39,143 nt of DNA from positions 1-39,143 of IMG/VR virus record IMGVR_UViG_3300011013_000034. One strand, given 5' to 3'. Origin of the DNA: a virus. The position numbers and the translations under genes are program-made. This document shows, one piece after another, positions 1 to 39,143 of this stretch. The notes beneath the pieces are model-generated. The model had not been told where the DNA came from and did no database searches. It saw nothing but the letters and a program-made list of their open reading frames with translations. Positions within the stretch are counted from its first letter, which is position 1, and every line of letters starts with the position of its first letter.

Positions 1-1
1 G

Positions 2-280
2 AATATAAATAGAAAGAACAGTCATTGGATATATCCAACTGTCTTAAAAAAATTAGAAAGAACATGTGAACAAGAAGGTATCCAGATGGTGAAGGTTTCA
101 CCATCCTATACCAGTCAAACTTGTTCAGGATGTGGCAACACAGACTCTGACTCACGAAACGGTGAGAAATATAAGTGTGTGAAATGCGGGTTAGAAATTG
201 ATGCAGATATAAATGCGGCAATCAACATTCGCAACAGAGGAGTTTATAGTCTCTCTGGCCAAATAAATAATAAAATATAA
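2..280 (+). CDS. tnpB: TnpB-family RNA-guided nuclease, C-terminal part (5' end outside window)
   Basis: The frame is open from base 2, so the gene begins upstream of the window and only about 92 codons are visible. The fragment has the TnpB C-terminus: a W-Y segment, a KLERTCEQ helix, the VKVSPSYTSQTCSGCG zinc-finger half, a second CVKCG half, and DADINAAINI, which carries the third RuvC catalytic Asp. These proteins of IS200/IS605 and IS607 elements are RNA-guided DNA nucleases. No Y1 or serine transposase is visible and no right-end hairpin was recognised in the 40 bases before the next gene. The guide RNA of such elements normally overlaps the tnpB 3' end, but I cannot define one here. 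Whether the complete gene is functional cannot be judged from the tail alone. The family call is firm. Confidence 0.9.
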   Translation, partial: NINRKNSHWIYPTVLKKLERTCEQEGIQMVKVSPSYTSQTCSGCGNTDSDSRNGEKYKCVKCGLEIDADINAAINIRNRGVYSLSGQINNKI

Positions 281-320
281 TATTTTATTTAACTATAACA
301 AAAATATTGCATTACACATT

Positions 321-680
321 ATGAAAAAAAATAACTTAAAAGATTTTTTTAAAGGATGGTTTATAGGAGATTTTGAGCCCTCTCTTTTGCGTTCACCAGA
401 TTTTGAGGTGGCGGTTAAAGATTATTCTGCTGGAGATAAAGAAAATAAACATGTTCATAAAAAAGCTGTTGAATTTACTGTTGTTTTAGATGGAGTCATA
501 TCTATGAATGATGTTAAATATTTTAAAAATGATATTATTACAATTGACAAATATGAATCAACAATATTTAAATCAATCACCGACTCAAGAACATTAGTAA
601 TTAAAACTCCGTCAGTTAAAGGAGATAAATATATTATAGATGAAACTGATATCACACAGAGGCAACCTAGAAAGGTCTAA
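321..680 (+). CDS. Small cupin-like protein, probably from a sugar or polysaccharide gene cluster
   Basis: This 119-residue protein opens with a KDFFKGWFIGDFEPS segment, followed by a single cupin-like barrel: two histidines in NKHVHKKAVE, then a glycine turn (VLDGVISMNDV) and a second half with NDIITIDKYEST. Similar short cupins occur in bacterial surface polysaccharide clusters beside nucleotide-sugar and GDPD-like genes, which matches the neighbours here. Substrate and activity are unknown. The ATG at 321 is preceded by an AT-rich leader without a Shine-Dalgarno sequence. The 3' end overlaps the next gene by 41 bases, more than the usual overlap, so the C-terminal residues past KYIIDETD may be an extension caused by loss of the original stop. 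The cupin call rests on pattern and length; the biological role is inferred from context. Confidence 0.7.
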   Translation: MKKNNLKDFFKGWFIGDFEPSLLRSPDFEVAVKDYSAGDKENKHVHKKAVEFTVVLDGVISMNDVKYFKNDIITIDKYESTIFKSITDSRTLVIKTPSVKGDKYIIDETDITQRQPRKV

Positions 681-1113
681 TCCAAAACAGGAAAATCATC
701 CTGATTACATAAGAGAAGCTTTAAGACAAGGCTTTGATGTTGAAGTAGACATTTGGCTTGTAGATGATAAGTTGTGGTTTGGACACGATGAACCACAATA
801 TGAAATTAAATGGAACTCTAAATGGAACTCTAATTGGGATTATCTAGGTGATGAACGTATATGGTGGCATTGTAAAAACCTAGAGGCCTTAGTGTATATT
901 AGAGAAAACGGCATAGGTCATACCAATTTTTTTTGGCACCAAGAGGATGATTTCACCCTGACTTCTAATTTTCATATCTGGACTTATCCAGGGAAGAAAT
1001 TAAGTAATAAATCCATTTGTGTAATGCCAGAGAGGGCAAGCTACACAAGTAGAGAGTTGAGGGATTGCTATGGAATCTGCAGCGATAACATTTTGAAATA
1101 TGTAGACTTATGA
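640..1113 (+). CDS. GDPD/PI-PLC-like phosphodiesterase, short form
   Basis: The 157-residue protein begins MKLISHRGN and has the glycerophosphodiester phosphodiesterase signature: HRG at residues 6-8, EN..P.YI..A, then DVEVDIW with the paired acidic residues, and FGHDEP with the second histidine. WHCKNLEAL and the C-terminal ICSDNILKYV are typical of a short GDPD-like family found in polysaccharide loci. The expected activity is metal-dependent hydrolysis of a phosphodiester; the substrate is unknown. A short in-frame duplication (KWNS repeated, around 811-834) lies just before the NWDYLG segment and may be recent. The stop overlaps the ATG of the galE remnant (ATGA arrangement), so the two genes were once translationally coupled. 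The frame itself is intact, unlike its downstream neighbour. Confidence 0.8.
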   Translation: MKLISHRGNLERSNPKQENHPDYIREALRQGFDVEVDIWLVDDKLWFGHDEPQYEIKWNSKWNSNWDYLGDERIWWHCKNLEALVYIRENGIGHTNFFWHQEDDFTLTSNFHIWTYPGKKLSNKSICVMPERASYTSRELRDCYGICSDNILKYVDL

Positions 1114-2058
1114 AAATTTTAGTCATAGGAGTTTAGGATATATAGGGAGCCACACAGCTGTTCAGACTGTTGAGTATGGATACGATGTCATTATCATAAA
1201 TAATTGTAGCAACGCATCCTATAAAACCTGGTTAGCACTTCAAAGACTTATAGGTAAAACTGAAAACATTTATTTGTTTGTAGGCGACATTAGAAAAGAG
1301 GAAAATCTTGATGTTGTATTTAGGTATGATAAAATTGACGCAGTCATTCATTTCGCAGCTGCAAAATCTGCTGAAGAATCTGTTGAAGAATATGTTAAAG
1401 ACTCCGACAAATACTATGACAACAATATTACTGGAACAATAAAGTTGCTCAACAAGATGAGTGAATACAAAGTGAACACACTCGTATTTTCTTCTAGCTA
1501 CTGTGTATACAGGGAGACCGAAACACCTAAAGACGGAATTGATGAAGATACTCCAATACAAAAGGCGGCAAATCCATATGGAAGCACAAAAAGGTTTGCG
1601 TAGACATCATTCAAGAATATACGGAAGTTGTCGACCTAAAAGCAGTGGCTCTAAGATATTTCATCCCTATTGGCTGTTATGAGCCTGGAAAGATTATCGA
1701 CAAACCTAAAGGGAAACCAGAAGGTCTTATTTCATACATCACAAGAGTTATTAAAGGAAATTTTGACCATTTTAGAGTACTTGGAAATGGCTACAATAAA
1801 AAGAATGGAACCGCAATTAGAGGCTATATAGATGTAAATAGCCTAGCTGCATACACACTTACCTTAGAGCATCACAAACCAATTCATACTGATAGTTTTC
1901 ACGTTTTTAATATTGGAACTGAACAAGGCCACTCAACATTTGATGTACTTCGAAAATTTAAAAAACAAGGCAATGAAATAAAATACAAAATATATCTAAA
2001 AAGAGAGGGAATATTATATCTATCTATGCAAATAACCGAAGGGCTACACAATTGTTGA
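1110..2058 (+). pseudogene. galE: Decayed UDP-glucose 4-epimerase-like gene (NAD-dependent SDR epimerase)
   Basis: Reading across frames reconstructs a GalE-like extended SDR. MKILVIG starts at ATG 1110 but runs into TAG at about 1134. One frame over, LGYIGSHTAV completes the glycine-rich NAD-binding loop, and the frame continues through DAVIHFAAAKS, LVFSSSYCVY and NPYGSTK (the catalytic YxxxK) to a stop at 1603. A further shift then gives DIIQEYTEVVDLKAVALRYF.PIG, IRGYIDV and HVFNIGTEQGHSTFDVL. After about 1985 the similarity is lost and the frame ends at 2058. Two separate single-base shifts plus a scrambled C-terminus make a functional enzyme very unlikely. A GTG at 1645 could start the last fragment, but that piece lacks the NAD-binding domain. 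The gene overlaps the preceding GDPD-like gene by ATGA, as expected for a transferred operon. Confidence 0.88.
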
Positions 2059-2119
2059 ATTAGAAAACTGAACGTACTTTTTCGCAAACTATTTCATCAA
2101 TAATATCTACTTTATAGCA

Positions 2120-2127
2120 TATTTATT
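2120..2127 (+). promoter_or_regulatory. Candidate phage promoter box, TATTTATT variant
   Basis: TATTTATT lies 46 bases before the ATG of the HAD-like gene at 2174, oriented with it. It is a one-base variant of the TATTTATA box seen at other unit heads. Position and sequence fit, but the distance is long and the region is AT-rich. Confidence 0.3.
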
Positions 2128-2173
2128 TTGTTTTCTGTTAATAATTGCTTCAATTTAATGAAAATAAAAATTT

Positions 2174-2938
2174 ATGAAAACAATAGCATTTAACATCGAC
2201 GGAGTAATTCGTAACTTTCACGCTCAGTTCGATAAACATTACCGAAAGGTATTTATTCAAAATGAAGAGCTCGTAGAAATGAACGAAGACTTTACCATTA
2301 AGGAACAAACCGAAGACGAAATTAAAGAAATTCAAGAAGCAGTTGAAAAAGCTGTTGAAGGAGCAATAAACTATCCTGTTGACTCTTGGGACCTCCTCAA
2401 TCACTATGAGTTCAAAAAGCAAGTTATTTCAATGACTGGCTCAGCTATCAATACTGAGGATGGTTATAAAATTAAAGAGAACCAGGATGACATTATTATA
2501 ACACCAAGAGAAGGTATTAAGAAGTTTATGTACGAGACTTATCCGTTCCAAATTTTTGGAAAGGCAGATGAGTATCAAGGGGCTATGGAAGCAATTAATC
2601 GCATTCAAGCTATTGGAAAAAGATTAGGTTTTAAGACAAAACTTGTTTGTGTCGCACAGAACGCTGCAATTAGAGCAACTTGCTACTTTCTTTGTAATGT
2701 ACAAAGTAGAATTAAAAGTATTGAATTTGTAGACTCTGAAAATGAGAAATGGGACCACTGCGATGTACTTGTTGATGTATCTCCAGATGCATTTCAAAGC
2801 AAGCCAGCAAACAAGACATCTGTGAAGATTGAAAGAGAATTTAATAGCTATGACAATGGAGATTTTTCATTTGACAATGTAAAGGCGTTAAATAATGAAA
2901 AAGTACTTAAAGAAATTTTAGGTTTAAAGGAAAAGTAA
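2174..2938 (+). CDS. HAD-like phosphatase-fold protein with altered motif I
   Basis: The 254-residue protein begins AFNIDGVIRNF, which matches HAD motif I (DxDGV) of 5'-nucleotidase-like enzymes except that the first, nucleophilic Asp is Asn (residue 7). Near the C-terminus CDVLVDVSPDAF resembles the acidic motif near the end of HAD folds. A charged helical insert of about 80 residues (EELVEMNEDFTIKEQTEDEIKEIQEAV region) separates motif I from the rest. The fold is reasonably supported. Because the nucleophile is missing, ordinary phosphatase activity is doubtful and a binding or structural role is possible. The gene stands alone between the cargo region and a strong terminator, so it is probably transcribed as a single unit. 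The ATG follows an AT-rich leader without a Shine-Dalgarno sequence. Confidence 0.65.
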   Translation: MKTIAFNIDGVIRNFHAQFDKHYRKVFIQNEELVEMNEDFTIKEQTEDEIKEIQEAVEKAVEGAINYPVDSWDLLNHYEFKKQVISMTGSAINTEDGYKIKENQDDIIITPREGIKKFMYETYPFQIFGKADEYQGAMEAINRIQAIGKRLGFKTKLVCVAQNAAIRATCYFLCNVQSRIKSIEFVDSENEKWDHCDVLVDVSPDAFQSKPANKTSVKIEREFNSYDNGDFSFDNVKALNNEKVLKEILGLKEK

Positions 2939-2963
2939 TAAAAATTTCATCCCCTTTATTTTT

Positions 2964-2996
2964 AAAAACCAGACTACTAAATAGTCTGGTTTTTTT
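2964..2996 (+). terminator. Rho-independent terminator after the HAD-like gene
   Basis: A 9-bp perfect stem (accagacta / tagtctggt) with a 5-base loop is extended by A-T pairs on both sides and followed by a run of seven T residues. It lies 25 bases after the stop at 2938 and is the strongest terminator seen in the window. Confidence 0.92.
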
Positions 2997-3079
2997 GTTT
3001 TTTGCAAATTTACTTTATTTTTTTCTTTCTTCGAAGTAGATTTTATTCATAAAACCTAAATATTGAAAAAAATTTTTTA

Positions 3080-4318
3080 ATGAAAGAAGAAACAGTAACA
3101 AAAAAGAAAGAGCTTACTCACAACGAAAGATGTGACCGAGCTATTGAGCAAATAAAAAGTGACAAATTTACAATCTCTTTTTATTGCCCACCTATGAATG
3201 CTCCAAGTGGTGGAGTAGCAGTCTTAATCAGATTAGCTAATGAATTAAGTAAAAAAGGGTTAAATGTAAATATGATATATGAGCCAAGGTTGGACCAACG
3301 TGCATCACAAGAAGCATCTATGAAGGCAAAAAAAGAAGTACGACTATTTGAAAGATTTAATCCAACTTGGTTGGACTTTGATATTAGTAACTTAAATTTT
3401 GTTGTTCTCGGAGATAAGCCTACCCTTAAAAAAGGAGAAAAACCACCAACTTTTAGTGATGGAACAGAAGTAAATTTCCAAACATTTAAAGTAAACCCTG
3501 AAGATATTTTAATTATACCTGAGGGATTTCCAGATATTATGCAAAAGACTGCTCAAATATCTTGTAAAAGAATTGTGCTTGCACAAAGTTGGTTTTATGT
3601 ACTTAATGCAATGGAGCCAGGACAAAAATGGCAACACTTCGGAATTAAGGATGTAATTTCTGTTTCAGACGCAATTACTGAATATTTAGATGCAATTATG
3701 CCAGGGTTAAATATTAAGAGATTACATCAAGGGATTGACCGTAAAACTTTTATTACACCTAAAAAGGTCTCTGACAAATACCCAATGGTTGCATTTACTG
3801 GTTCTAGAGGGCCAGAAAATAAATTAAAGACTCTTAATATCATTAAAACATTTTATGCTTTCTACCCACAATTTAGATGGGTTCGATTTGTTGAACTAAA
3901 AGATTTAGAGAGAAAAGAATTTGGAGAGAGATTAGCGAATTGTGCTTTCTTGCTTTACACTGATGATATTGCTGGTTTTGGAACACTTCCATTAGAAGCG
4001 ATGGCTTGTGGAACTCATGTAATTGGATGGGCTGCTCATGGAGGAAAAGAATACATGAAGTCTGACAATGAAGCAACGGGAACTTTAGGCAATGGATTTT
4101 GGACTAATAATGGAGATATTTTTCAAACAGCAGAATTGCTTGGTGTAGCAATGGAAAAATGGGTAAATGGAGATATGGATATCCCTGAAATTTCAAAAAC
4201 TTATGAGGAAACTCTTAAAGATTATACAGTAGAAGGAGAATCTGCACAAATAATTGAACTTATTAATGAATATAAAAACGAAAGAATTAATGAACTTGAG
4301 CAAGCAAAAACAAAGTAA
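3080..4318 (+). CDS. GT-B fold glycosyltransferase (GT4-like)
   Basis: This 412-residue protein has a GT-B layout. After a charged start of about 30 residues, the N-terminal half begins with ISFYCPPMNAPSGGVAVLIRLANELSKKGLNV, the usual opening of GT4-like enzymes with a glycine-rich loop. The C-terminal half contains PMVAFTGSRGPENKLKTL and GFGTLPLEAMACGTHVIGW, the nucleotide-sugar binding signature that includes the conserved Glu. It should transfer a sugar from an activated donor; donor and acceptor are unknown. Phage DNA, virion proteins and host surface are all possible acceptors. It begins about 80 bases after the terminator at 2964-2996 and heads an overlapping set with the next two genes. 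The start has no Shine-Dalgarno sequence. Confidence 0.85.
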   Translation: MKEETVTKKKELTHNERCDRAIEQIKSDKFTISFYCPPMNAPSGGVAVLIRLANELSKKGLNVNMIYEPRLDQRASQEASMKAKKEVRLFERFNPTWLDFDISNLNFVVLGDKPTLKKGEKPPTFSDGTEVNFQTFKVNPEDILIIPEGFPDIMQKTAQISCKRIVLAQSWFYVLNAMEPGQKWQHFGIKDVISVSDAITEYLDAIMPGLNIKRLHQGIDRKTFITPKKVSDKYPMVAFTGSRGPENKLKTLNIIKTFYAFYPQFRWVRFVELKDLERKEFGERLANCAFLLYTDDIAGFGTLPLEAMACGTHVIGWAAHGGKEYMKSDNEATGTLGNGFWTNNGDIFQTAELLGVAMEKWVNGDMDIPEISKTYEETLKDYTVEGESAQIIELINEYKNERINELEQAKTK

Positions 4319-5252
4319 TATATTGTTAGGATTATTCTTAGCAGATATAAAAAACGAAAATTTACTAAATGAAGCTTTATATAGTGTTTCTCAACAAGAA
4401 CTTCCAGTTGACTTGTTGATTATTCACCCTGGGCTTTCTAAAGAAGATTTAGAAAAATTACAAGCAATTGTAAATAAACCAACTGTATTTATCAAAGAGC
4501 AAAAACAAAATGCTAAGACTAATGAAGTTGAAGTAGTAGAAAACAAAATAGAGGCGACAAAACCAATTAACTTTCACATAGAAGAATTACAAATAAATAA
4601 TTTTTCTAAAGTGTTTAATACTGTGTTTAGGGTTGCCTCAGAAAATGAGTATCCAGCTTTTTCATTATTTGAAAAAGAAGATATAATTGGACCTAAATGG
4701 TTTTCAACTGCACATCAGTATATGGAAGAAAATCCAGATATGCATATATTTACTCCACTTATTAGAAATAATGTAAATGGTTCATTTATAAATTACATGA
4801 ATGAATCTGCTTGGGCAGAAGGATTTGCAGAAGAGGCTGGTAAATTTGATATGCAGCTTCTTAATCGTTTTAATTGTATAAATCCTCTTGGGGCTGTTTA
4901 TAAAACTGAAGCAATTAAAGAATATAGTGAAGAAAAAGATGATGGCTTGTTTTATCCAATGAAGGAGAGTATCAAAATTAGCCATTTTTATGAGTTTTTT
5001 ATTCGAATGGCATATAATGATGTTAAGATAATGAGTATCCCAAGAGTAGGGTATGAGATGAGAATATTTAATCAACCCGAATTCAAAGAGACTTCTTCTA
5101 AAATTCCACAAAACATAGTTCAAATTCCACTTGAAAAAGGCGGTATAACACCTGAAGAAGGTAGTTTTTGGATGGAACTAGCGAAAAAAGAATATTTCTT
5201 TGAAGATGACAGAAATAAAGTTTATGAAGAACCAAAACAACAAACAGCCTAA
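4290..5252 (+). CDS. Probable glycosyltransferase, GT-A/GT2-like
   Basis: About 320 residues. NILLGLFLADIKNENLLNEALYSVSQQ followed by VDLLIIHPGLS resembles the beta-alpha-beta start of family 2 glycosyltransferases. Further on, AFSLFEKEDIIGPKWF sits where a DxD-like metal site and acceptor region would be expected, and FNCINPLGAVYKTEAIKEYSEEKDDGLFYPM resembles the later GT-A core. No clean DxD is present, so activity is inferred from fold-like patterns and the neighbouring GT-B enzyme. ATG 4290 is preferred: it gives a 29-base overlap with the previous gene, and the next gene has an identical 29-base overlap if it starts at 5224. In-frame ATGs at 4254 and 4266 would add up to 12 poorly conserved-looking residues. 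Donor and acceptor are unknown. Confidence 0.6.
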   Translation: MNLSKQKQSNILLGLFLADIKNENLLNEALYSVSQQELPVDLLIIHPGLSKEDLEKLQAIVNKPTVFIKEQKQNAKTNEVEVVENKIEATKPINFHIEELQINNFSKVFNTVFRVASENEYPAFSLFEKEDIIGPKWFSTAHQYMEENPDMHIFTPLIRNNVNGSFINYMNESAWAEGFAEEAGKFDMQLLNRFNCINPLGAVYKTEAIKEYSEEKDDGLFYPMKESIKISHFYEFFIRMAYNDVKIMSIPRVGYEMRIFNQPEFKETSSKIPQNIVQIPLEKGGITPEEGSFWMELAKKEYFFEDDRNKVYEEPKQQTA

Positions 5253-6204
5253 AAGTAATGATGTTTCTGGCGACTCAAATTCTAAAAAAGGATTAAAGAC
5301 TGTAAAAATAAAAAAAGCTGCCTCAAAGGAATATTGGACTGAAGAAACAGAAAAGTATGTAAAAGAATATCTTGAAAATGATTTTCATTGGTATCAAGTT
5401 AAAATAGAAAAACATCTTGATAATTGTGCTAAAGAAAATAAGTCTTTAAAGAAAAAATTAGAATCAAATATTTGGAACAGAGAAGGTCTTCTTAATGAAA
5501 ATATTAAGAAAGCTTTCTCTTTAGTTGCTGATGATGATTTTATCCTTTTAAATGAGGCTTGGATAGAACAAACTAACAGGCAAAGTATTACTTTTAAAAA
5601 AGATAAAATTTTTAGGGATTTTATTCAAAAACCACTAAATCGTTTAGTTGAAAATATTATATTTAATTATAGACTTTTTAGACCTGGGGTAGACATAAAA
5701 ACTCTCCATGATGATTGTCTTACTTTTGTATATAGTAAGTTTGCTAATTTTAATCCTAGCCAAAATACAAAGTCATTTTCGTTTTATGGAACGATTGCTA
5801 AACATTATTTGCTAGGAGAAAAAAAAGAGCTTGATAAAATTCTTCAAACCAACTTAGATTATAATGACCACAAAGAAGAGGCAGATTCCAAAGAAACCGT
5901 TGAACTCGATGAAGTTTCAGACCTTGATTCATCCCTGTCTTTGTTTAATTATATAATAGAAGAGGTTGAAAGAGAGATTAACAAAGACAATATATCTAAA
6001 AATGATATTCAAGTTGGAGATGCAATAATTTCTATTTTTACAAACCATAAGATAATAGGTGTATATCAGAAAAATCAGGTATATCAACTAATAAAAGAAA
6101 GAACAGGTTTACAAACAAAAGATATTACTTATTCTCTTCATCGTTTTAGAATTTTCTATAAATTAGTTAAACAGGATTTTTTAAAACTAACAGATATTGA
6201 ATAG
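5224..6204 (+). CDS. Sigma-like protein, candidate late transcription sigma factor (gp55-like)
   Basis: About 326 residues from ATG 5224; ATG 5206 or TTG 5200 are alternatives. The N-terminus is lysine-rich. The segment around residues 137-208 (RLVENIIFNYRLF, DIKTLHDDCLTFVYSKFANFNP, KSFSFYGTIAKHYLLGEKK) follows the pattern of sigma-70 region 2 as seen in T4-type late sigma factors: a helix, an acidic DD, an NF.P turn and an aromatic F.FYGTIAKHYL helix. An acidic linker follows (residues 215-245), then a helical C-terminal part (IISIFTNHKIIGVYQKNQVYQLIKERTGLQTKDITYSLHRFR) that could be a region 4-like or winged-helix DNA-binding segment. It is the natural candidate to recognise the TATTTATA boxes described below. 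The call is by pattern only; a structure-based search would settle it. Confidence 0.6.
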   Translation: MKNQNNKQPKSNDVSGDSNSKKGLKTVKIKKAASKEYWTEETEKYVKEYLENDFHWYQVKIEKHLDNCAKENKSLKKKLESNIWNREGLLNENIKKAFSLVADDDFILLNEAWIEQTNRQSITFKKDKIFRDFIQKPLNRLVENIIFNYRLFRPGVDIKTLHDDCLTFVYSKFANFNPSQNTKSFSFYGTIAKHYLLGEKKELDKILQTNLDYNDHKEEADSKETVELDEVSDLDSSLSLFNYIIEEVEREINKDNISKNDIQVGDAIISIFTNHKIIGVYQKNQVYQLIKERTGLQTKDITYSLHRFRIFYKLVKQDFLKLTDIE

Positions 6205-6269
6205 TGGCTAAAAATTAAAAAGTGCTTAGATAATTTTATTATTCTGCTATTTTTTTTCGTCAAGCTATT

Positions 6270-6277
6270 TATTTATA
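6270..6277 (+). promoter_or_regulatory. TATTTATA box before the first tail operon
   Basis: An exact TATTTATA lies 66 bases before the ATG at 6344, overlapping a TATTTATT at 6266. It opens the 6344-9626 tail gene run, which has no other gap large enough for a promoter. Confidence 0.5.
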
Positions 6278-6343
6278 AAATTAAAACAAGAAAATCCATT
6301 CATCTAGCAAAGTTCGTGGGTGGGTTGTTCATAAATTAAAACT

Positions 6344-6739: not shown

Positions 6740-8028
6740 TGGCTTTAGACCTTCCTATATCAAATGTTCTTACAGATACCCAAGGAGAGCTAACTTCTAA
6801 AGTTTCAGCTATACAAAGCTTGCTTGCTCTTCCTGTTTTTCCTTATAGGAATATTCCAAAAAAAAACCAATTATCTTCTTTTGATTATCTTATGAAAATA
6901 TTGGAAACTATGGGAATTCCTCCAGAACCTCAATTTGATAAGTTTATTGACATAGTTTTATCTGAACAGAACATATTTTTAGAAAATGCGGTTCTTAATG
7001 CTTTTGCTTATTCTTTAGCTAAAAGAAATATAATTTTAAATCAACCCCCACTTGCAACCCCTCTTCTTTCAACAGAAATAGCAGCAACACAAAAAGTTAA
7101 TTTTGATTTACTTAAAGCACAGTTTGGAGGATTATATCTTGCAAATAATAAAAAAGAAATCACAAATAGTCTTATCTTTTCTGTTTTTGGTGGAGTAAAT
7201 ACTCCTGCGGGACAAATACTTGTTCCTAATTTAGCCGAAAGAAATAGACTTATTGATGGAGCTACTTGTGGAGATGAAATGTTTAGCACCTCTAATCCTC
7301 CTATTTCGCGTAATGAAGATGTAGAATTTAATCGTATTAAACTTAGACAACAACTTGAAAAAGGACAAGTAGAAATTATGGTTAATTGTCAAACTTCAAA
7401 AATAAAATTACCTTCTGAACCTGGTTTTTTACTCACTGGAGGTGGAACACAAACATTAACAGGCTCATCACCTTTGGGTACTAATGCACAAACTATACAA
7501 AATGTAGTAAATTATACTCAAGGTGAAATTCAGAAAATAAATAATGAAAAAAATGCAGCTACTGGTGGTAAAAATTTTCATCGTATAATGTTAGAAAAGT
7601 TATTGTCAAATATAACTACACTTGTTTCTCCTCATATTGTACCTGTTTTTAATTATATAACATCACAACCAGGGGGTATTCAACTTAGTCTCAGTGATTT
7701 TATACAACCAACTTGTACTGTTGCCGAAAATTGTGGTAGTTCAACTTCAGGAGTTGACCATGCATTTGCTTTTGAGCTTTCAAATGAAATGTATCGTGAA
7801 CTTGTGTCGGTTATTTTAATATTTACGATTAAAGAGTTTAAATCATTTGCTGTTAACTATTTAAAAAGGTTAGCTATTGAAAGAGCGATTCGTAAAGCAG
7901 AAAAACTTAAGTCTCAATTTAAGTTTGGTAGCATAACAGGAGCCGCAGGGCGATTGAGAAAATATAAGACCGCTCTTAGTTCTCTTTCTTCTATAGTACC
8001 TAATATTGATAATATAACAAACGTATAA
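6739..8028 (+). CDS. Unidentified tail/baseplate protein
   Basis: The 429-residue protein is coupled at both ends by TAATG overlaps, so it belongs to one structural operon. Its N-terminal part is mixed (LPISNVLTDTQGELTSKVSAIQSLLALPVFPY). A Gly/Thr/Ser-rich loop occurs near residues 233-255, and the C-terminal 80 residues are a strongly basic helix-rich region (IFTIKEFKSFAVNYLKRLAIERAIRKAEKLKSQFKFGS). Cysteines occur in pairs in mid-protein, without a clear metal motif. I recognise no catalytic motif. The position upstream of an OB-fold hub protein suggests a baseplate or tail component. There is no signal peptide or convincing membrane span. Confidence 0.8.
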   Translation: MALDLPISNVLTDTQGELTSKVSAIQSLLALPVFPYRNIPKKNQLSSFDYLMKILETMGIPPEPQFDKFIDIVLSEQNIFLENAVLNAFAYSLAKRNIILNQPPLATPLLSTEIAATQKVNFDLLKAQFGGLYLANNKKEITNSLIFSVFGGVNTPAGQILVPNLAERNRLIDGATCGDEMFSTSNPPISRNEDVEFNRIKLRQQLEKGQVEIMVNCQTSKIKLPSEPGFLLTGGGTQTLTGSSPLGTNAQTIQNVVNYTQGEIQKINNEKNAATGGKNFHRIMLEKLLSNITTLVSPHIVPVFNYITSQPGGIQLSLSDFIQPTCTVAENCGSSTSGVDHAFAFELSNEMYRELVSVILIFTIKEFKSFAVNYLKRLAIERAIRKAEKLKSQFKFGSITGAAGRLRKYKTALSSLSSIVPNIDNITNV

Positions 8029-8444
8029 TGGCCTGTATAAAGATAAAAGACGAATTAAACAAAGCAGAAGAGATTGCATCATTTATGTTGTTTCTTTTGC
8101 AGCAAGACCGTATACCTTTACCACGTTTGTCTATATTTCAAATATTAACGGCGAAAGCAAGACCTGGGTTGAGTGCGGAAATTTTGTCTGCATCTATAAT
8201 TTCTAGATTTGATGAAATTGGCATTCCGACAGGGCCTCTTGTTGGAGGAGCTCCAAATGTTATGGAAAATTTAGTTAAAGTAATGACGGAAGAATTTGTA
8301 GATTCAATTCAAAGCGACATGAGAGTAGATATTGCAACTGATATAGGTGCAACAATTCAAGGAGTTGGAGCTAATGCTGGTGGGCCTGTTACAGCCATTG
8401 GGTCTGTTGTGTCAAACGGTTCAGGAGTCGGAGTGCCAAGATAA
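8028..8444 (+). CDS. Unidentified small tail protein
   Basis: The 138-residue protein starts by TAATG overlap with the preceding gene. Its first 75 residues are helical (KDELNKAEEIASFMLFLLQQDRIPLPRLSIFQILT), and its end is glycine-rich and flexible (GATIQGVGANAGGPVTAIGSVVSNGSGVGVPR). No known motif was found. Such a flexible Gly/Val-rich tail often packs into neighbouring subunits in virion assemblies, but this is inference. The gene is real by coupling, codon use and the fit between its stop and the next small gene, which starts five bases later. Confidence 0.75.
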   Translation: MACIKIKDELNKAEEIASFMLFLLQQDRIPLPRLSIFQILTAKARPGLSAEILSASIISRFDEIGIPTGPLVGGAPNVMENLVKVMTEEFVDSIQSDMRVDIATDIGATIQGVGANAGGPVTAIGSVVSNGSGVGVPR

Positions 8445-8449
8445 ATATT

Positions 8450-9626: not shown

Positions 9627-9649
9627 TGTTTGGCAGAAATTAGAGATAT

Positions 9650-12892: not shown

Positions 12893-12917
12893 TATTTAAA
12901 AGTTGAATTTAGTTTTC

Positions 12918-12986: not shown

Positions 12987-13005
12987 TTTAAAATAAGGCT
13001 ATAAC

Positions 13006-13395: not shown

Positions 13396-15255
13396 ATGGC
13401 AAAACAGCAAGTTACATATTTAAGTAGAGACTTTGCAACAATAAGAGAGGACCTTATTCAATATCTTAAAACTTTTTTTCCTGAGCAGTGGCAAGATTTT
13501 AATGTTGCTTCTCCTGGTATGGCAATATTAGAACTAAATGCATATGTTGCCGACCTTCTGTCTTATGTGGCAGATAAAAAATTTAATGAGTTATTTCTCG
13601 ATTCTGCTCAAGAAAGAAATTCAATTTATAGATTAGCAAAGACTCATGGGTATAAAATACCTGGAGTTAGACCAGCAGTAACAATCTCTGATTTTATTAT
13701 TGAAGTTCCAACTACTTCAAATGGTCCAGATGTAAGTTATCTCCCTTTGTACAGAACAGGGGTTAAAGTTAAAGGTGCTGGCCAAGTATTTGAAACTGTT
13801 AATGAAATAGATTTTACAAACGATTTTTCTGAAGATGGAATTGCTAATCGTATTATAGAGCCTATACTTAATGGAAATCAAGACTTAATAAGATACCGTA
13901 TTATAAAGAGAGAAAAAATAAAAGCAGGTGTCACTAAGATATTTAAAAAAGAAATAACCACAGATGAAGCTGGTCCGTTTTTTCAACTTACGCTACCTGA
14001 GTCTAATGTGCTTGAAATTATGTCTGTAATCATTAAAGGCACAACTGGTATTTCTACAAACCCTACCTTTAAAGAATTTAATGATGATAACCTTAAATTT
14101 TATGAAGTAAATTATTTGCCTGAGAATAAAATTTTTGTTGATGAAGGCATAGGTAGTGATTCTAGTGGTATTAAGTCAGGCAATTATAAAGAAGTACCTC
14201 AAAGATTCATAAAAGAATTTTTGCCAAATGGTAAATGTCGACTCACATTTGGTTCAGGTTCAGATGGTGCTGCTGCATTTGATGGTTTTCTTACTAATAT
14301 GACAAATGTAACCAATTGTGATAGTTTAGATACTCTAAATGTTTCTGCATTATTAGATAATAATGCTCTTGGAGAAAAAGTAGAGCCAAATACAACTGTT
14401 TTTGTAAAATATCGTGTAGGAGGCGGTCAACTTTCCAATGTGGGAGCCAACACGCTTCAGTCAGTTAGCGATATTAACGCAGTAATACTCGGAGCAGACC
14501 CAGCTATTAATCAAACAATAATTTCTTCAACAAGAGCAAATAATCCAATCCCAGCACTTGGTGGCGTTGGATTACCTATTGCTGAAGAGATTAAACAATT
14601 TATTGCTGCAAATTACGCAGCTCAAGAAAGATGTGTTACTCTTGATGATTATATTTCTAGAGCTCAGCAGATACCAGGTAAATTTGGAGCTCCTTTTAGA
14701 ACTTTTGGCAAAGTGGAAGACAATAAAATTAAGCTGTATGTTCTGTCGAGAGATGGTAATGGAAAAATTGTTACATCATCTACATCTGTTATTAAAAATA
14801 ATATTCAAAATTATTTAGTTCCGTTTAGGATGTTAAATGATTTTGTGGAAATTAATGATGGAAAAGTTGTTAACTTACAAGTAGAGCTAGATATTTTAGT
14901 TGACCGAACTTTCAATGCATCTGAAGTTAAAGCAAATGTTATTAATGTAGTTAATGACTTTTTTAATGTTGATAATTGGCAAATGAATCAACATGTATAT
15001 ATTTCTCAAATAAATGATATAATACGCGATGTTCCAGGCGTTATTAATGTGGTTGATATAAGGCTTTATAATATGCAATTTGGAAGTTACTCAAGTACTA
15101 TACATGACCAAGCAATAGGAGAACAAACAACAGATTCAGACACAGGTGTTGTTAGAACAGAAATAGTCTTTAGAGATAATGCTTTATTTTCAACTCCCAT
15201 TTCATTATTTGAAGTGAAGTTTCAAAATAAAGATGTGCGGGTACGCGTAAGCTAA
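13396..15255 (+). CDS. Baseplate wedge protein, gp6/baseplate J-like
   Basis: 619 residues. The opening SRDFATIREDLIQYLKTFFPEQWQDFNVASPGMAILELNAYVADLLSYVADKKFNELFLDSAQERNSIYRLAKTHGYKI region (starting near residue 10) is the hallmark of gp6/J-type wedge proteins: a start helix, SPGM.ILEL and a tyrosine-rich helix, then a rejected-loop YKIPGVRPA. The C-terminal part has AEEIKQFIAANYAAQERCVTLDDYISRAQQIPGKFG and DIIRDVPGVINVVDIRLY, both standard for the family. It dimerises around the hub to form the inner ring of the baseplate. It follows gp25 by six bases, the usual order in T4-like and P2-like phages. No truncation is seen. Confidence 0.93.
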   Translation: MAKQQVTYLSRDFATIREDLIQYLKTFFPEQWQDFNVASPGMAILELNAYVADLLSYVADKKFNELFLDSAQERNSIYRLAKTHGYKIPGVRPAVTISDFIIEVPTTSNGPDVSYLPLYRTGVKVKGAGQVFETVNEIDFTNDFSEDGIANRIIEPILNGNQDLIRYRIIKREKIKAGVTKIFKKEITTDEAGPFFQLTLPESNVLEIMSVIIKGTTGISTNPTFKEFNDDNLKFYEVNYLPENKIFVDEGIGSDSSGIKSGNYKEVPQRFIKEFLPNGKCRLTFGSGSDGAAAFDGFLTNMTNVTNCDSLDTLNVSALLDNNALGEKVEPNTTVFVKYRVGGGQLSNVGANTLQSVSDINAVILGADPAINQTIISSTRANNPIPALGGVGLPIAEEIKQFIAANYAAQERCVTLDDYISRAQQIPGKFGAPFRTFGKVEDNKIKLYVLSRDGNGKIVTSSTSVIKNNIQNYLVPFRMLNDFVEINDGKVVNLQVELDILVDRTFNASEVKANVINVVNDFFNVDNWQMNQHVYISQINDIIRDVPGVINVVDIRLYNMQFGSYSSTIHDQAIGEQTTDSDTGVVRTEIVFRDNALFSTPISLFEVKFQNKDVRVRVS

Positions 15256-28115: not shown

Positions 28116-28125
28116 AAAATGAATT

Positions 28126-28352: not shown

Positions 28353-28395
28353 TGAAATGGTGAGAACAGTCTTCAAGGACTAAAAATAGATAATT

Positions 28396-30444: not shown

Positions 30445-30447
30445 ATT

Positions 30448-31455: not shown

Positions 31456-31470
31456 AAAAATAAAAACAAA

Positions 31471-31478
31471 TATTTATA
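31471..31478 (+). promoter_or_regulatory. TATTTATA box for the split paralogue
   Basis: TATTTATA ends nine bases before the ATG at 31488, in the only gap (32 bases) between the two paralogues. It would allow separate expression of the second copy. Confidence 0.5.
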
Positions 31479-31487
31479 ATAAAAGTT

Positions 31488-31988: not shown

Positions 31989-31999
31989 GCAACACAATT

Positions 32000-32566: not shown

Positions 32567-32591
32567 CAATTAAATATAAAATTATAATATA

Positions 32592-33692: not shown

Positions 33693-33712
33693 TTTCAATT
33701 TCGTTTTACATG

Positions 33713-33747
33713 AAAAAAAGGCTTTATATTAATAAAGTCTTTTTTTA
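33713..33747 (+). terminator. Rho-independent terminator after the fibre block
   Basis: A stem pairing aaaaaggctttat with ataaagtcttttt (one G-T pair) around a short loop is followed by a T run. It separates the structural genes from the resolvase gene at 33757. The arms are AT-rich, so it is weaker than the terminator at 2964. Confidence 0.75.
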
Positions 33748-33756
33748 TATTTTGTC

Positions 33757-34302
33757 ATGACATTAGGACTAGATATAAGTACTGCTTGCATAGGTTACTC
33801 TGTGTTTTCTGACGATAATAAATTACTTGAACTCAATTGTGTAAAATTCAAATCTAAACAGACAATGTTCGAGAAATTGCAAAGTTTCAAAAAAGCAACA
33901 GAACATTTTAAAGATTTCCCAATTAAAAGAGTTTCTATCGAGGAGCCTCTTAAAAAATTCGCTGGAAAATTTTCTTCTGCACACACTATTGCAGTGCTTA
34001 ATTTTTTTAATGGCATGATTAGTTCTTATGTATTTGACCTTTATGAGTTAGAGCCAGAATATTATAATGTAAATGCTGCACGTAAAACTGTGTTTCCCGA
34101 CCTTAAATTAGACAGAAAAGGAAAGGTTGCTAAATATCAAATTTGGAAAGGTGTTATGGAATTGGAACCGCAAATTAATTGGAGATATGGAGTGCGTTCA
34201 AGAAAATTATCTGAAGAAAATTTTGATATGTCAGATAGCTATGTTGTTTCAATGTGTGCTATTATATTAGCTCAAAAACAAAGAGACAAGCTTAATTCTT
34301 GA
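33757..34302 (+). CDS. RuvC-like Holliday junction resolvase
   Basis: The 181-residue protein has the RuvC fold motifs in order: GLDISTACIGYSV with Asp6 as the first metal ligand, SIEEP with Glu62/Glu63, and FDMSDSYVV with Asp157/Asp160 as the final acidic pair. Length and spacing fit RuvC-like phage resolvases. The expected role is resolution of recombination and replication junctions before packaging, replacing the endonuclease VII used by T4. Its neighbour is the recombination nuclease gene downstream, which fits. It begins only ten bases after the terminator, so its promoter may overlap that region or read-through may occur. No truncation is seen. Confidence 0.88.
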   Translation: MTLGLDISTACIGYSVFSDDNKLLELNCVKFKSKQTMFEKLQSFKKATEHFKDFPIKRVSIEEPLKKFAGKFSSAHTIAVLNFFNGMISSYVFDLYELEPEYYNVNAARKTVFPDLKLDRKGKVAKYQIWKGVMELEPQINWRYGVRSRKLSEENFDMSDSYVVSMCAIILAQKQRDKLNS

Positions 34303-34329
34303 TGCAAAGTAAATATTTTACTATATTTG
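34299..34329 (+). promoter_or_regulatory. Bacteroidota-type promoter before the SbcDC-like gene
   Basis: TTG at 34299-34301 and TATATTTG at 34322-34329 are separated by 20 bases, matching the Bacteroidota primary sigma pattern of a TTG-type upstream element and TAnnTTTG. It lies 37 bases before the ATG at 34367 and partly overlaps the end of the resolvase gene. Confidence 0.6.
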
Positions 34330-34366
34330 CCTAATACAGTTATTAATATCACAAACAAACTAAAGA

Positions 34367-37300
34367 ATGAAAATCGCCCATTTGGCCGATATTCAGATTA
34401 GATTTGGTTCGCGCCATCCTGAATATAGACAAGTTTTTAAAAAACTTTATGCCGACCTAAATATTGTAAAGCCAGATAGAATTTACTTAGCTGGAGACTT
34501 GGTTCACCAAAAAATAAACATGTCTCCAAATTCCCATACTCTTTTAGCAGAACTACTTATAAATCTATCAAACATTGCTCCTACAGATGTTATTTTAGGT
34601 AACCATGATATGAATCTTCAAGATAAAGCTCAAGGAGATGCTATTTCTCCAATTTTTGACCTAGCAAGTATGTTAGGACAAAAAGAAATGGCAAATGTTA
34701 TTGGAGAGCATAATAAAAATCGGGTGGATTTCAGTAAAAAAGCAGTTTATTTTTTTCCAGACTCAGGCATTTACGATATTACAGATAAACTTACTTATGG
34801 TGTATATTCATGTAAGGATAATCAGTTGTTTGCTTTAGAATCTAAAAAACCAGGAAGATATTACGCAGCTTTATTTCACGGAACAATTTATGGTTCAAGA
34901 AATGACAATGGATATTTATCTACTGGAGATAATCTGATAAAACCATCAACATTTGCAAATTATGATATTGCCATGCTTGGCGATATCCATGAACATCAAA
35001 CAATTCCAAGATTTAAAGATGACATATCAGATACAATTGCATATGCTGGCTCACTTATTCAACAAAATTATGGAGAATCAATTGATAAAGGTTATTTACT
35101 TTGGGATACAGATACTTCTACTTTTGAAAAGAAAATCATCTTAAACGATTATGGCTTTGCTAAGATTCATATATCTAGAGGAGAAAATATTGAAGAAAGA
35201 ATTGAACACATGCGTTTTTCAAATGACCGAAGAAAGACAAAAGTAAAAGTTACTTGGGAAGATTTTGAAGAAAACTATTCTCTTGAAAAGGAAATACAAA
35301 TTAAAAAATTAGTTAAAGAGAAGCATGGCTGTGAAGTTGTTAATGTGAATTTTGAAGGAATTAAAAAAGAATATGAAGATTTAGAAAGTGATGAAAAAGA
35401 AGAAGAAAAGGCGTTTTTAACTTATTTTGATGAATTTATTGATAATAATGAATTTGACGACTGTGATGATGATTTAAAAAAAGAAATTATAAAATTTGCA
35501 GAAGAAGTAGATAATGTTCTGGAAATAGATGAATCAATAAAAAAAGGTAGTTCTTGGGAACTTAAATCAGTTGAGATTAGTAATTTGTTCTCATTTCCTA
35601 AAACACCAACTAGATTTGATTTTGACCAAGAGTTACAAGGTATTGTAGGCGTTTTTGGAAATAATTATAATGGTAAATCTAATTTTGTAAAAGCTCTTGT
35701 GTGGGGATTAATGGATGTTATTCTTGGAACTACAAATAAGCAAGCTAATAAATTTTTAGTTAATCTGTATACTGACTCAGAGGTGGGATATGCTAAATAT
35801 TTTTTACTTATTGATGATGAAGAATATTATATTGAAAGAAAAGTTACAAGAAAAACAAAGTCAGATGGAACTAAATCTAATACCTATAAAGTAATTTATA
35901 AAAAACTTATTGTTACTAAAGATGACTATGGAAATATTGAAGAAGAGAAGTGGGTGTCAAAAATATCAGATAAAAATACAACTGAACAAAAAGAAGTTAA
36001 AGACCTTGTACTTCAGTCAATAGGCACTTTTGAGGATTTTGCCAAAACTAGTCTTCAAGCACAAGATGGTGATGCAAATTACTTATCACTCCACCAACAA
36101 CCTAAAAATGACCTTATTAATAAATTTCTTGGCCTTGAATCATATCGTGACCGTCACGCATATGGGAAAGAATTTTTTAATAAAATTAAAAACAAACAAA
36201 GAGAGCTTGGCGATGTGATAGAGATTGAAGATAAAATTAAAGTCTTTGAAAATGATATAAAAGAAAAAGAAAAAAACCTTGTCTCTCTTCAAAAAGAAAA
36301 AGATATTAATTCCACAAAAAAATCTGACACAGATAATAGGGTGTTAGAATATACACAAAAATTAGAAAAAGTTGAAGTTCTTCTTTATGAAGACAGAAAA
36401 GAATTAAAAGCAGCACTTTTTAATAAAGAACAGGAATTGTTAGATTTTCAAAAAGAACATATAGAAGTTCAAACGTGGCTAGGCTCTAATTTTAAAAAAG
36501 CTCTTCCTTTCAAAGAAGGGGAAACATTACAAAAAATCCAATTAGAAATTAAAGGAAAAGAAGATAGTCTTCAAGTGGAGAAAAATAATTTTCTTATTAT
36601 CAAAAAATGGATTGACACTAATCCAAAAAAGGAAGAAATTTATTTAGGTGGAACAGCTGACCAAATTAAGACTTTAACTAGTGAATTAGTATCATTAAGA
36701 GCTGAGCTTAAAATGTATGCAGGAGAAGACTGTCCTACTTGTAAAAGAGCTATTGAAGGCTCAGAGCCTCAGCCTGAAAAACATGCAGAATGTGAAAAAA
36801 TAATTTTAGAAAAACTGAAAGAAATAGAAAATAAAGAAGCTTTTATTAAATCGGCTAATGATATTGTTACACATAATACTACGTTTGATTCAAAGAAAAT
36901 TCAATATAATACATTATATTCTCTTTGCAAATCTAAGAGACAAACTATTGACGGTCTAATAGAGAAGGAAAAACAAATAAAAAATTCTGAAAATTTAATT
37001 GAACATAATATTTTAGTCGACAATAAGACAACTAGATTTCAATTACTTACAACGTCCATTGAAACAATTAAAGGAGAAATTTATAAGTTAAAAGAGAACG
37101 ATGCTAAAATTGATGATAGTTTACGAAAAAAAGCTCACAACATTACTGTACAAGAAGAAATCGACCGACTTCAAAGTAAAGCAAAAGAATTCCAGCTAAA
37201 CGTTTTTAACCTTGATAGAAATATTGTTGACCTATCTGGTGATATTAAAGTTCTTAAAAATAACAAAGAGAATTATAGTGATAAATTAGAGAATATTAAG

Positions 37301-37852
37301 AGGGAAGAAAAAATGTATAAAGTGTACTCTATTTATTTACAAGCAGTACATCGTGATGGAATACCAGCATTAATTATTAGAAAAAAGCTTCCTATAATTA
37401 ACTCAAAAATTAACTCGATTCTTCAAGATATTGTTGATTTTAAAGTTGAGCTCAAAATACTTACTAATGGCGATATTAATGAGGTGTTTTATTTTGCTGA
37501 AGATAAAAGTGATGCATTGCCTATTTCAGGTTTTGCTTCAGGGGCTCAAAAGTTCGTTTCTATTATTGCAATAAAAGAAGCATTGCATTATATGAGTACG
37601 CTTCCTAAGCCATCTTTGTCTATTATTGACGAGGGATTTGGCTCTTTGGACGAGGAACTTACTATGGAGATGTTAGGTATTTTGTTATTTCTTAAAAGTA
37701 TACATAAAAATGTAATAGTTATCACTCATAGAAATGAAATTAAAGATTTTGCTGACAAGATTATTGAAGCTAAAAAAGTTAAGGATGACATTCCTAAAAA
37801 TATTTTAGATAACAATCCAAATGCTGGAATATCAATATTTAGCGTAAAATGA
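34367..37852 (+). CDS. Single-chain SbcD-SbcC (Mre11-Rad50, gp47-gp46) fusion
   Basis: 1161 residues combining two normally separate subunits. Residues 1-300: calcineurin-like phosphoesterase with Asp8 (ADIQ), GD 43-44, GNHD 78-81, His171 and GDIHEH 206-210. The usual His of motif I (DxH) is Gln10. An acidic linker follows (about 325-385). Residues 392-1161: Rad50-like ATPase with Walker A GNNYNGKS (431-438), a long coiled coil holding a zinc hook CPTC (789-792), signature FASGAQKF (1056-1063), Walker B IIDE (Asp1088, Glu1089) with D-loop GSLDEE, and the ITHR histidine loop. It should process DNA ends for recombination-dependent replication. Fusion would fix a 1:1 ratio. It has a host-type promoter and overlaps the next gene by ATGA. 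Confidence 0.93.
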   Translation: MKIAHLADIQIRFGSRHPEYRQVFKKLYADLNIVKPDRIYLAGDLVHQKINMSPNSHTLLAELLINLSNIAPTDVILGNHDMNLQDKAQGDAISPIFDLASMLGQKEMANVIGEHNKNRVDFSKKAVYFFPDSGIYDITDKLTYGVYSCKDNQLFALESKKPGRYYAALFHGTIYGSRNDNGYLSTGDNLIKPSTFANYDIAMLGDIHEHQTIPRFKDDISDTIAYAGSLIQQNYGESIDKGYLLWDTDTSTFEKKIILNDYGFAKIHISRGENIEERIEHMRFSNDRRKTKVKVTWEDFEENYSLEKEIQIKKLVKEKHGCEVVNVNFEGIKKEYEDLESDEKEEEKAFLTYFDEFIDNNEFDDCDDDLKKEIIKFAEEVDNVLEIDESIKKGSSWELKSVEISNLFSFPKTPTRFDFDQELQGIVGVFGNNYNGKSNFVKALVWGLMDVILGTTNKQANKFLVNLYTDSEVGYAKYFLLIDDEEYYIERKVTRKTKSDGTKSNTYKVIYKKLIVTKDDYGNIEEEKWVSKISDKNTTEQKEVKDLVLQSIGTFEDFAKTSLQAQDGDANYLSLHQQPKNDLINKFLGLESYRDRHAYGKEFFNKIKNKQRELGDVIEIEDKIKVFENDIKEKEKNLVSLQKEKDINSTKKSDTDNRVLEYTQKLEKVEVLLYEDRKELKAALFNKEQELLDFQKEHIEVQTWLGSNFKKALPFKEGETLQKIQLEIKGKEDSLQVEKNNFLIIKKWIDTNPKKEEIYLGGTADQIKTLTSELVSLRAELKMYAGEDCPTCKRAIEGSEPQPEKHAECEKIILEKLKEIENKEAFIKSANDIVTHNTTFDSKKIQYNTLYSLCKSKRQTIDGLIEKEKQIKNSENLIEHNILVDNKTTRFQLLTTSIETIKGEIYKLKENDAKIDDSLRKKAHNITVQEEIDRLQSKAKEFQLNVFNLDRNIVDLSGDIKVLKNNKENYSDKLENIKREEKMYKVYSIYLQAVHRDGIPALIIRKKLPIINSKINSILQDIVDFKVELKILTNGDINEVFYFAEDKSDALPISGFASGAQKFVSIIAIKEALHYMSTLPKPSLSIIDEGFGSLDEELTMEMLGILLFLKSIHKNVIVITHRNEIKDFADKIIEAKKVKDDIPKNILDNNPNAGISIFSVK

Positions 37853-38238
37853 CACGAGAAGAATTACTTAAATTAAGCGAAAAAGAGCGTGAAGCTTATT
37901 ATTCTCAATTAAACAAACAAGTAGAAAGAGAAGATGCTGCTAAAAAACTTAAATTACAGCAACAAGAATTAATTGATTATAGTAAAAGGAAAGCTAGAGA
38001 AGCTAAAAGAACTGCTGAAAAAGCCGCTAAAATAAAAGTTGTAGAACAATATCTTGCGTCTAAACTCTCCATAGATTGGATTTTAGATAAGTCAAATTAC
38101 TATGATGGTATTCTTCAGGAGCAAAAGCTTTTTCAAATAAAAAAAGGACTTACAATTTACACACTCTATATTAAAGATAAAGAAATTGCTAAAACTCATA
38201 AAAAACTTTGGTATACAGGAATATATTGCAAGAACTGA
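37849..38238 (+). CDS. Small basic helical protein coupled to the SbcDC-like gene
   Basis: The 129-residue protein starts within the stop of the nuclease gene (ATGA). The first 70 residues are a highly charged helix (EELLKLSEKEREAYYSQLNKQVEREDAAKK.. then KRKAREAKRTAEKAAKIK). A small domain follows (VVEQYLASKLSIDWILDKSNYYDG, GLTIYTLYIKDKEIAKTHKKLWYTGIYC). The family is not recognised; coupling suggests a partner in recombination or DNA metabolism. After the stop at 38238, another frame continues with a charged helix (ELKEKAENILKEHYKQTKKEKED) to 38303, right up to the convergent gene. A one-base shift near 38232 would join them, so the annotated C-terminus may be shortened by a frameshift. Confidence 0.72.
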   Translation: MTREELLKLSEKEREAYYSQLNKQVEREDAAKKLKLQQQELIDYSKRKAREAKRTAEKAAKIKVVEQYLASKLSIDWILDKSNYYDGILQEQKLFQIKKGLTIYTLYIKDKEIAKTHKKLWYTGIYCKN

Positions 38239-38299
38239 AAGAGAAAGCTGAAAATATTTTAAAAGAACATTATAAGCAAACAAAAAAAGAAAAAGAAGA

Positions 38300-38923
38300 T
38301 TAGTAAAGCGTCTCCTCTCCTGTTCCTGGTTCCGATGGTTCTGATGGTTTTGCTAGTGAAGATGCAGGTGTAGTATTGCCTGAAGGTGCAATGAGCATTT
38401 TTTGATTTGCTGCCGCTATATTAGGATTAAATTCAGAAATAATTCCTCCTGTCATTGCTGAGTCTTGTTTTGAAAAACCACCTATTGGCAAGCTAGTAAA
38501 CATTTTACCAGTAAACCACATTCCTTTTATGTTTTCAGATTTAAAAAGTCTCCATTTATTATTGGCTTCAGCACTTCTAACGCCAGTTTTAATAGCTTCA
38601 CTTTCTGATTGTCCTACTTCATGTATTCCTCTAATAATTATTTTTCCATATTTATTTTTTCCTAGTGCTACAGGGAGTATAGTCCTCATTTTGGCAATAG
38701 GCATAGTATATTTTTCATTGTTAGATTTAAAAGATAAACCTACTTCCATACCATATGTAATAGCTTGTTTCATAAGTTCAGCGTTAAACGGAACACGTTC
38801 ACCACTTTTTGCTAAAGCAGAAATTCTTTGGGCATCCGTAACTATTTCCATAAGCAATTTTTGGAAATTAATTCCAGATTGCTCAAGTAATTTTTTTTTG
38901 TATTGTAGTGATGAATTAAGCAT
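38300..38923 (-). CDS. Unidentified protein, weakly WYL-like centre
   Basis: 207 residues. The N-terminal 70 residues are helical (LLEQSGINFQKLLMEIVTDAQRISALAKSGERV). The central region, KIIIRGIHEVGQSESEAIKTG then KWRLFKSENIKGMWFTGKMF, follows an order seen in WYL/SH3-like beta domains: a recoverable beta strand, a GQS loop and a WRLF...I.GM strand. The similarity is too weak for a firm name. The C-terminal 40 residues are flexible and end in a Ser/Pro/Glu-rich tail (PSEPSEPGTGEE). It is transcribed towards the recombination genes and converges on them. A TATTTATT box sits five bases before the ATG. The gene is real by length and composition; its function is unknown. Confidence 0.7.
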   Translation of the reverse strand: MLNSSLQYKKKLLEQSGINFQKLLMEIVTDAQRISALAKSGERVPFNAELMKQAITYGMEVGLSFKSNNEKYTMPIAKMRTILPVALGKNKYGKIIIRGIHEVGQSESEAIKTGVRSAEANNKWRLFKSENIKGMWFTGKMFTSLPIGGFSKQDSAMTGGIISEFNPNIAAANQKMLIAPSGNTTPASSLAKPSEPSEPGTGEETLY

Positions 38924-38928
38924 TTGTA

Positions 38929-38936
38929 AATAAATA
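38929..38936 (-). promoter_or_regulatory. Candidate TATTTATT box for the 38923 gene
   Basis: It reads TATTTATT on the minus strand and ends five bases before the start codon at 38923, implying a nearly leaderless transcript. It is a variant of the common box and a weaker candidate. Confidence 0.3.
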
Positions 38937-38992
38937 GTGCAAAATAGTAATTTTTTTTTAAGAAAATTTTTGTTTATATTTTAAAAACAACC

Positions 38993-39143
38993 ATGACAAA
39001 CATAATTATTAAGACAGAACAAGATTATCATATGGAATATCATGAAAATAGTAAAGTGCATATTAGTTTCTATAAATCTAACTTATTTAATCAATGTGCT
39101 CATCAACATATTATTGAAAAGCATTTAGCTCTTGATAAACAAA
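38993..39143 (+). CDS. Unidentified gene, 3' end outside window
   Basis: The frame is open from ATG 38993 to the window end, giving 50 residues (starting MTNIIIKTEQDYHMEYHENSKVH). It is histidine-rich, with a beta-like start followed by a helix (CAHQHIIEKHLALDK). It is divergent from the 38923 gene with a 69-base AT-rich gap that includes tttttgtttatatttt, which resembles but does not match a Bacteroidota -7 element. No family can be recognised from this piece. Confidence 0.6.
   Translation, partial: MTNIIIKTEQDYHMEYHENSKVHISFYKSNLFNQCAHQHIIEKHLALDKQ

Follow-up and report, generated by a model that had tools for sequence, protein, structure and literature searches.

Why does a long stretch of phage DNA contain not a single GATC? 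The question is raised by the IMG/VR virus record IMGVR_UViG_3300011013_000034, of which we analysed a window of 39,143 bases (positions 1-39143), a fragment of a larger phage genome. An original prediction, made from the letters of this DNA, had claimed that GATC is totally absent and that selection exceeding codon bias acts against it. Both claims were borne out. GATC occurred 0 times versus 81 occurrences expected from a Markov model or 114 from composition alone; the Markov value is conservative, since the counts of GAT and ATC are themselves depressed by the avoidance of GATC. A codon-shuffled null, named beforehand as the test by which the prediction could be refuted, was run as 300 synonymous-codon shuffles that preserved every protein and the codon usage of each gene. 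It yielded 89.5 ± 7.0 GATC and never fewer than 71, which places the observed 0 at z −12.9. A second word, CCGG, which had gone unnoticed along with the family-wide and switching pattern described below, was likewise absent from the whole window (0 versus 14.7 in the Markov model and 17.8 in the synonymous shuffles, z −5.0). GATC was the strongest word signal in the window. CGCG, CTAG, GTAC and TCGA occurred at about normal frequency and GCGC was moderately low (z −2.6).

As a criterion for restriction-site elimination we used an observed/expected ratio (CB) <0.1 with >15 sites expected. GATC is eliminated in this sense against the Markov model (0/81) and the synonymous null (0/89.5). CCGG, with its expectations of 14.7 and 17.8, is borderline in the window alone, and stands at 0/210 in a relative of 389 kb. 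In the window as well as in relatives, the depletion of both words goes beyond what protein sequence and codon usage impose. Counts and synonymous shuffles thus define positions 1..39143, irrespective of strand, as GATC-free and CCGG-free phage DNA, from which both words have been purged mostly via silent substitutions.

The genes of the window display this purging in all three reading frames of GATC. The proposed comparison of aspartate codons before C and before other bases revealed an absolute switch: preceding C, GAC was used in 85 of 85 cases and GAT in none, and elsewhere GAT predominated (512 GAT and 128 GAC, 80% GAT). No comparable shift preceding C occurred in the control pairs AAT/AAC, TAT/TAC and CAT/CAC. 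In the second frame, the isoleucine codon ATC never followed G (0/61), and in the third frame serine after xGA was encoded by AGY in 15 of 15 cases as opposed to 75% TCN elsewhere. The three examples cited in the original prediction are correct and in frame on the plus strand. These are GAC-CTT-GAT-TCA at 5920..5931 (open reading frame (ORF) 5200-6204), in which the switch before C adjoins a normal GAT, GAC-CGT at 8106..8111 (ORF 8028-8444), and GAC-CTT-CTG at 13552..13560 (ORF 13396-15255). Since the DNA is A+T-rich (32% G+C), biased mutation or codon usage, or an artefact of assembly, might be considered as the source of such a pattern. However, the null that keeps proteins and codons has its minimum at 71 GATC, and GAT is common wherever A, G or T follows.

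Relatives of the window gave a wider view of the erased words. With the baseplate wedge ORF 13396-15255 as query we obtained 17 IMG/VR loci, and an alignment of 14 of these led to 34. A megablast search of phage records with the first part of the window (bases 1-25,000) as query found no match, and the SbcC-like ORF of the window as query found no relatives. About 30 IMG/VR contigs encoding wedge relatives were fetched nearly whole. Most are fragments; large contigs are G025 (389 kb), G008 (372 kb) and G009 (187 kb). Words of 4-6 bases were counted and 27 non-redundant family contigs tallied, where expected counts of words nested in other eliminated words are not meaningful. CCSGG, considered as a separate avoided word, was discarded as an artefact, as it contains CCGG.

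CCGG was eliminated in 22 out of 25 informative family contigs and normal only in G019, G023 and G030. None was found in G025 (210 expected) and none in G008 (122 expected). GATC was eliminated in 15 out of 27 contigs. CGCG was eliminated in most, being normal or mildly low in the window, G021/G022/G029, G025, G028 and G030. CTAG was eliminated in G023 and in the clade of G001, G004, G011 and G014 (with the near-duplicate G002), and GATATC, ATCGAT and CGNCG were eliminated in subsets of contigs. Furthermore, GCGC was lost from G024, CCWGG and GGWCC from G030, and CCTNAGG from G008. Synonymous-shuffle nulls confirmed the eliminations in relatives, and the few residual sites were isolated. In G014 these nulls gave GATC 0 vs 245, CTAG 1 vs 171, CGNCG 0 vs 52, CCGG 0 vs 41, GATATC 1 vs 24, ATCGAT 0 vs 21.5 and CGCG 0 vs 21. 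Up to 7 words were erased together in one contig. The erased words resemble Type II recognition sites, and nearly all are palindromic.

This diversity of words bears on the suggestion, also part of the original prediction, of a mismatch-repair or Dam-type sensitivity, by which MutH-type nicking, SeqA-type regulation or other GATC physiology would select against GATC. No other word gives as strong a signal in the window as GATC, which would fit such a cause. The suggestion found no support, however, in that CCGG is equally absent and many unrelated words (CGCG, CTAG, GATATC, CGNCG, CCWGG) are equally erased in relatives. Moreover, in one clade (G003/G015) GATC is frequent in other contexts, yet GGATC/GATCC (0/61) and AGATCT (0/30) are missing, so that at least two more specific words must be involved. 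To our knowledge, Dam-directed repair does not occur in Bacteroidota, the host phylum favoured below, which further counts against this explanation. We regard it as extremely unlikely.

The set of erased words differs between close relatives. A smaller and a larger tree were built on the wedge protein; several deep branches are unresolved and the change counts are rough minima. On the wedge tree GATC must have changed at least 6 times, CGNCG 5 times, CCGG 4 times, both CGCG and GATATC 3 times, and CTAG twice. Switching was mostly all-or-none, near relatives going between normal and zero GATC. For instance, the GATC-bearing G008 groups with G009 (GATC 0) and G012 (GATC 2) at 73-75% nucleotide identity. 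In codon alignments of orthologues, restricted to positions with identical amino acids in both phages, the GATC sites of G003 were retained in G011 in 0/57 cases, those of G015 in G004 in 0/38, and those of G008 in G009 in 0/73 and in G012 in 0/49. Between two GATC-bearing phages 31/51 were retained, and control words were mostly retained at 10-70%. The most frequent replacement at orthologous sites was GAT-C by GAC-C. This comparison also refutes bias or artefact as the cause. In relatives from independent metagenomes, some words are lacking altogether and others occur at normal frequency. The probability left to that explanation is practically negligible.

Depletion was not all-or-none throughout. 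In G008, GATC (554 vs 760) and CTAG (215 vs 425) were at intermediate levels, possibly reflecting a mark in the course of being lost or acquired. In G009, the non-palindromic CCTGA/TCAGG was strongly depleted (18 vs 138 in the synonymous null) and CGNNCG and GGSCC were low; these are possibly asymmetric or Type III-like sites.

Profile searches for methyltransferases and phage nucleases bear on where the cutting enzyme resides. C5 methyltransferases (PF00145) had no match in any of 30 records, and N6/N4 methyltransferases (PF01555) had none in the 14 contigs of the core family. A D12-type enzyme (PF02086) was found, among the first 18 records, only in a distant outgroup. A PF01555 profile match with a DLPY motif was present in G021 (C1:32067-32723), G022 (C1:32979-33635) and G029 (C1:6815-7471). 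These three contigs are GATC- and CCGG-free, and the enzyme may protect a word other than the erased ones. A methyltransferase as the general reason for tolerance of CGCG was rejected, as the 389 kb contig G025 tolerates CGCG without a PF01555 match. The RE_HpaII and DpnII families were absent from the phages tested, including two contigs >370 kb, and RE_HpaII matched 1 of 14 control genomes, a Bacteroides. Among the PADLOC/Pfam matches listed for the 372 kb contig G008, nucleases were represented by homing endonucleases and by T7 endonuclease I-like and PD-(D/E)XK exonuclease-type families, and no Type II enzyme was among them.

Hence, with no recognised phage methyltransferase in the core contigs and no phage enzyme of the HpaII or DpnII type, the cutter most likely resides in the hosts, and we infer that it is a host Type II enzyme. 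The best explanation, to which we assign a probability of roughly 0.88, is that GATC and CCGG were removed by selection, as hosts within the range of the phage carry Type II enzymes cutting both words. Host restriction as a cause, put forward in the original prediction, gains support from the many Type II-like words erased in relatives. Host Type II enzymes would cut GATC and CCGG in unmethylated phage DNA; phages bearing sites would be cut more often, and mostly silent substitutions would be fixed until zero sites remain. The routes would be GAT-C to GAC-C, G-ATC to G-ATT or G-ATA, and serine TCN to AGY after xGA. Most contigs being without a recognised methyltransferase, site removal would represent the visible protection of the family, and a change of hosts would entail a change of the erased word set.

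The phages might instead encode sequence-specific nucleases, chiefly against CCGG, with which they break down host DNA, their own unmethylated genome staying intact as it lacks the sites. The near-universal loss of CCGG, as a conserved phage gene would yield, next to variable GATC, CTAG and CGCG, is compatible with this idea, and so are core contigs without a recognised methyltransferase. Nevertheless, the searches above revealed neither HpaII nor DpnII families nor, among the matches listed for the 372 kb contig, any other Type II enzyme. Up to 7 erased words per genome would require many such nucleases, and CCGG, CGCG and GATC coincide with flavobacterial specificities. Self-avoiding phage nucleases are thus an improbable cause.

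The nature of the hosts can be approached from translation signals and known restriction-modification (R-M) systems. A Shine-Dalgarno sequence preceded 0-16% of family genes versus 62% in the outgroup G016 (8 genes). Family leaders are adenine-rich with peaks around −13 to −10 and −3, as are those of the Flavobacterium phage immuto, and in F. johnsoniae translation is favoured by A at −3, −6, −12 and −13 (PMC6847099). Among flavobacteria, F. psychrophilum CSF259-93 possesses R-M systems for CCGG (HpaII-like) and CGCG (FnuDII-like), as well as a methyltransferase of MboI specificity (GATC) without cognate restriction endonuclease (PMC11837570); CCGG, CGCG and GATC are the three most widely erased words of the family. 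An active GATC R-M system is known from Prevotella intermedia (PMC5608340). The A-rich leaders without Shine-Dalgarno sequence, the specificities of F. psychrophilum and the RE_HpaII match in Bacteroides make a Bacteroidota host likely.

The GATC methyltransferase of F. psychrophilum that lacks a cognate restriction enzyme also allows for DpnI-like, modification-dependent cutting, in which orphan GATC methyltransferases of hosts mark the phage DNA and a Type IIM enzyme cuts it. Type IIM specificity for GATC has been linked to avoidance in phages (PMC6286503). However, this mechanism covers GATC only and leaves CCGG, CGCG, CTAG and GATATC unexplained, which renders it very unlikely.

Several points weigh against removal by host Type II enzymes. 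For CCGG to be lost so widely in the family, almost every host would have to carry an enzyme that cuts it, or the memory would have to be long. Three related contigs carry the N6/N4 methyltransferase, and, the window being a fragment, its phage may encode a methyltransferase elsewhere. A scan of 84,980 bacterial and archaeal genomes with the TnpB fragment encoded in the window gave only matches of ≤48% identity in unrelated phyla, too distant to point to a host and thereby to its R-M systems.

That phages rid themselves of Type II sites is known; unusual here are the completeness of the loss, the number of sites affected and the switching between lineages. Complete elimination of Type II sites has been seen in roughly a tenth of viral genomes (Rusinov et al. 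2018, PMC6286503). Our phages resemble the non-temperate phages of that study in that Type II sites, for the most part palindromic, are lost entirely or almost so, that most contigs have no recognised modification enzyme, and that the avoidance is stronger than composition predicts. They differ in that up to seven words are lost together in contigs of up to 372-389 kb and that the set switches between close relatives, whereas the sites in that study were paired with known hosts. The textbook example is Staphylococcus phage K, a large lytic phage of 140 kb that likewise eliminated GATC, against Sau3A (PMC6532042). There a single word is paired with a single known host system, as opposed to the additional loss of CCGG, and of other words in relatives of up to 389 kb, in our case. 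The Microcystis phage Mel-JY01 (PP395634) is a distant relative with 30% identity in the baseplate wedge, and 50 kb of its genome (PP395634.1 140001-190000) have GATC 0/99 and CTAG 0/43. In contrast to our family, CCGG (231/184) and CGCG are normal, Shine-Dalgarno sequences reach 46%, and the host belongs to another phylum. In the same 50 kb of this cultured phage with a named host, GAATTC, GATATC, GGACC, CTGCAG and CTGAAG are also eliminated. The Flavobacterium phages vB_FspM_immuto share a full-length wedge homologue (29%) and A-rich leaders without Shine-Dalgarno sequence, but are without site elimination (GATC 165/176, CCGG 49/46 in 50 kb). Less ordinary in our family are therefore the number of words erased together, the contig size, and the all-or-none switching between relatives. 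In a partial literature search we found no paper describing multi-word, switching elimination for such phages.

Elimination becomes harder with genome size, as each added kilobase brings potential sites; the contigs of 372-389 kb that are free of CCGG show selection capable of keeping more than 100 potential sites at zero. At slightly better than even odds, the family keeps a cumulative record of the restriction repertoires of its hosts, with a fingerprint of up to seven erased words that is rewritten over about 25-30% nucleotide divergence. If so, fingerprints would predict R-M systems of hosts, including specificities such as CGNCG (0 vs 52 in the synonymous null), for which we know of no restriction enzyme. 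They could serve host prediction for uncultured phages and the recognition of unknown restriction specificities. Relatives differing by a whole erased word provide a natural experiment on the speed at which restriction shapes genomes and on the decay of the mark after the pressure ends.

The window is a piece of the genome of a large T4-like phage with a contractile tail. The wedge ORF (13396..15255, plus strand) encodes a T4 gp6-like protein of 619 amino acids (PHROG 219/10646/6). Also on the plus strand are an SbcC-like recombination nuclease, a fusion of T4 gp46/47 type (34367..37852; PHROG 77, E 2.5e-27), and a RuvC-like Holliday junction resolvase (33757..34302; PHROG 159, E 4.9e-8), which is structure-specific and not a restriction enzyme. 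The T4-like tail and recombination genes suggest a lytic lifestyle. According to the ORF reading, a cargo region on the plus strand at 1..2150 comprises a TnpB C-terminus (2-280), two small ORFs, and a broken epimerase-like sequence split into two ORFs in two frames (1274-1603 and 1645-2058). TnpB, ORFs 321 and 640, and the first epimerase ORF were not found among 16 related contigs. The cargo also lacks GATC, as predicted (0 versus ~5-6 expected; chance ~0.2-0.7%). The accompanying remark that it was long resident or came from a similar background is consistent with this count, in which ~5 sites were expected.

Two further observations concern the relatives. In the 60 bases preceding genes of G008, G009, G010 and G012, TCCCCC/CCCCTTT occurs 13-15 times, a 100-200-fold excess over the expectation from composition, and is a candidate leader or promoter element. 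G008 furthermore carries matches to viperin-like (pVip) proteins, to the NAD synthesis enzymes NAPRTase and NAD synthase, and to Thg1, RtcB, RF-1-domain and poly(A) polymerase-like proteins.

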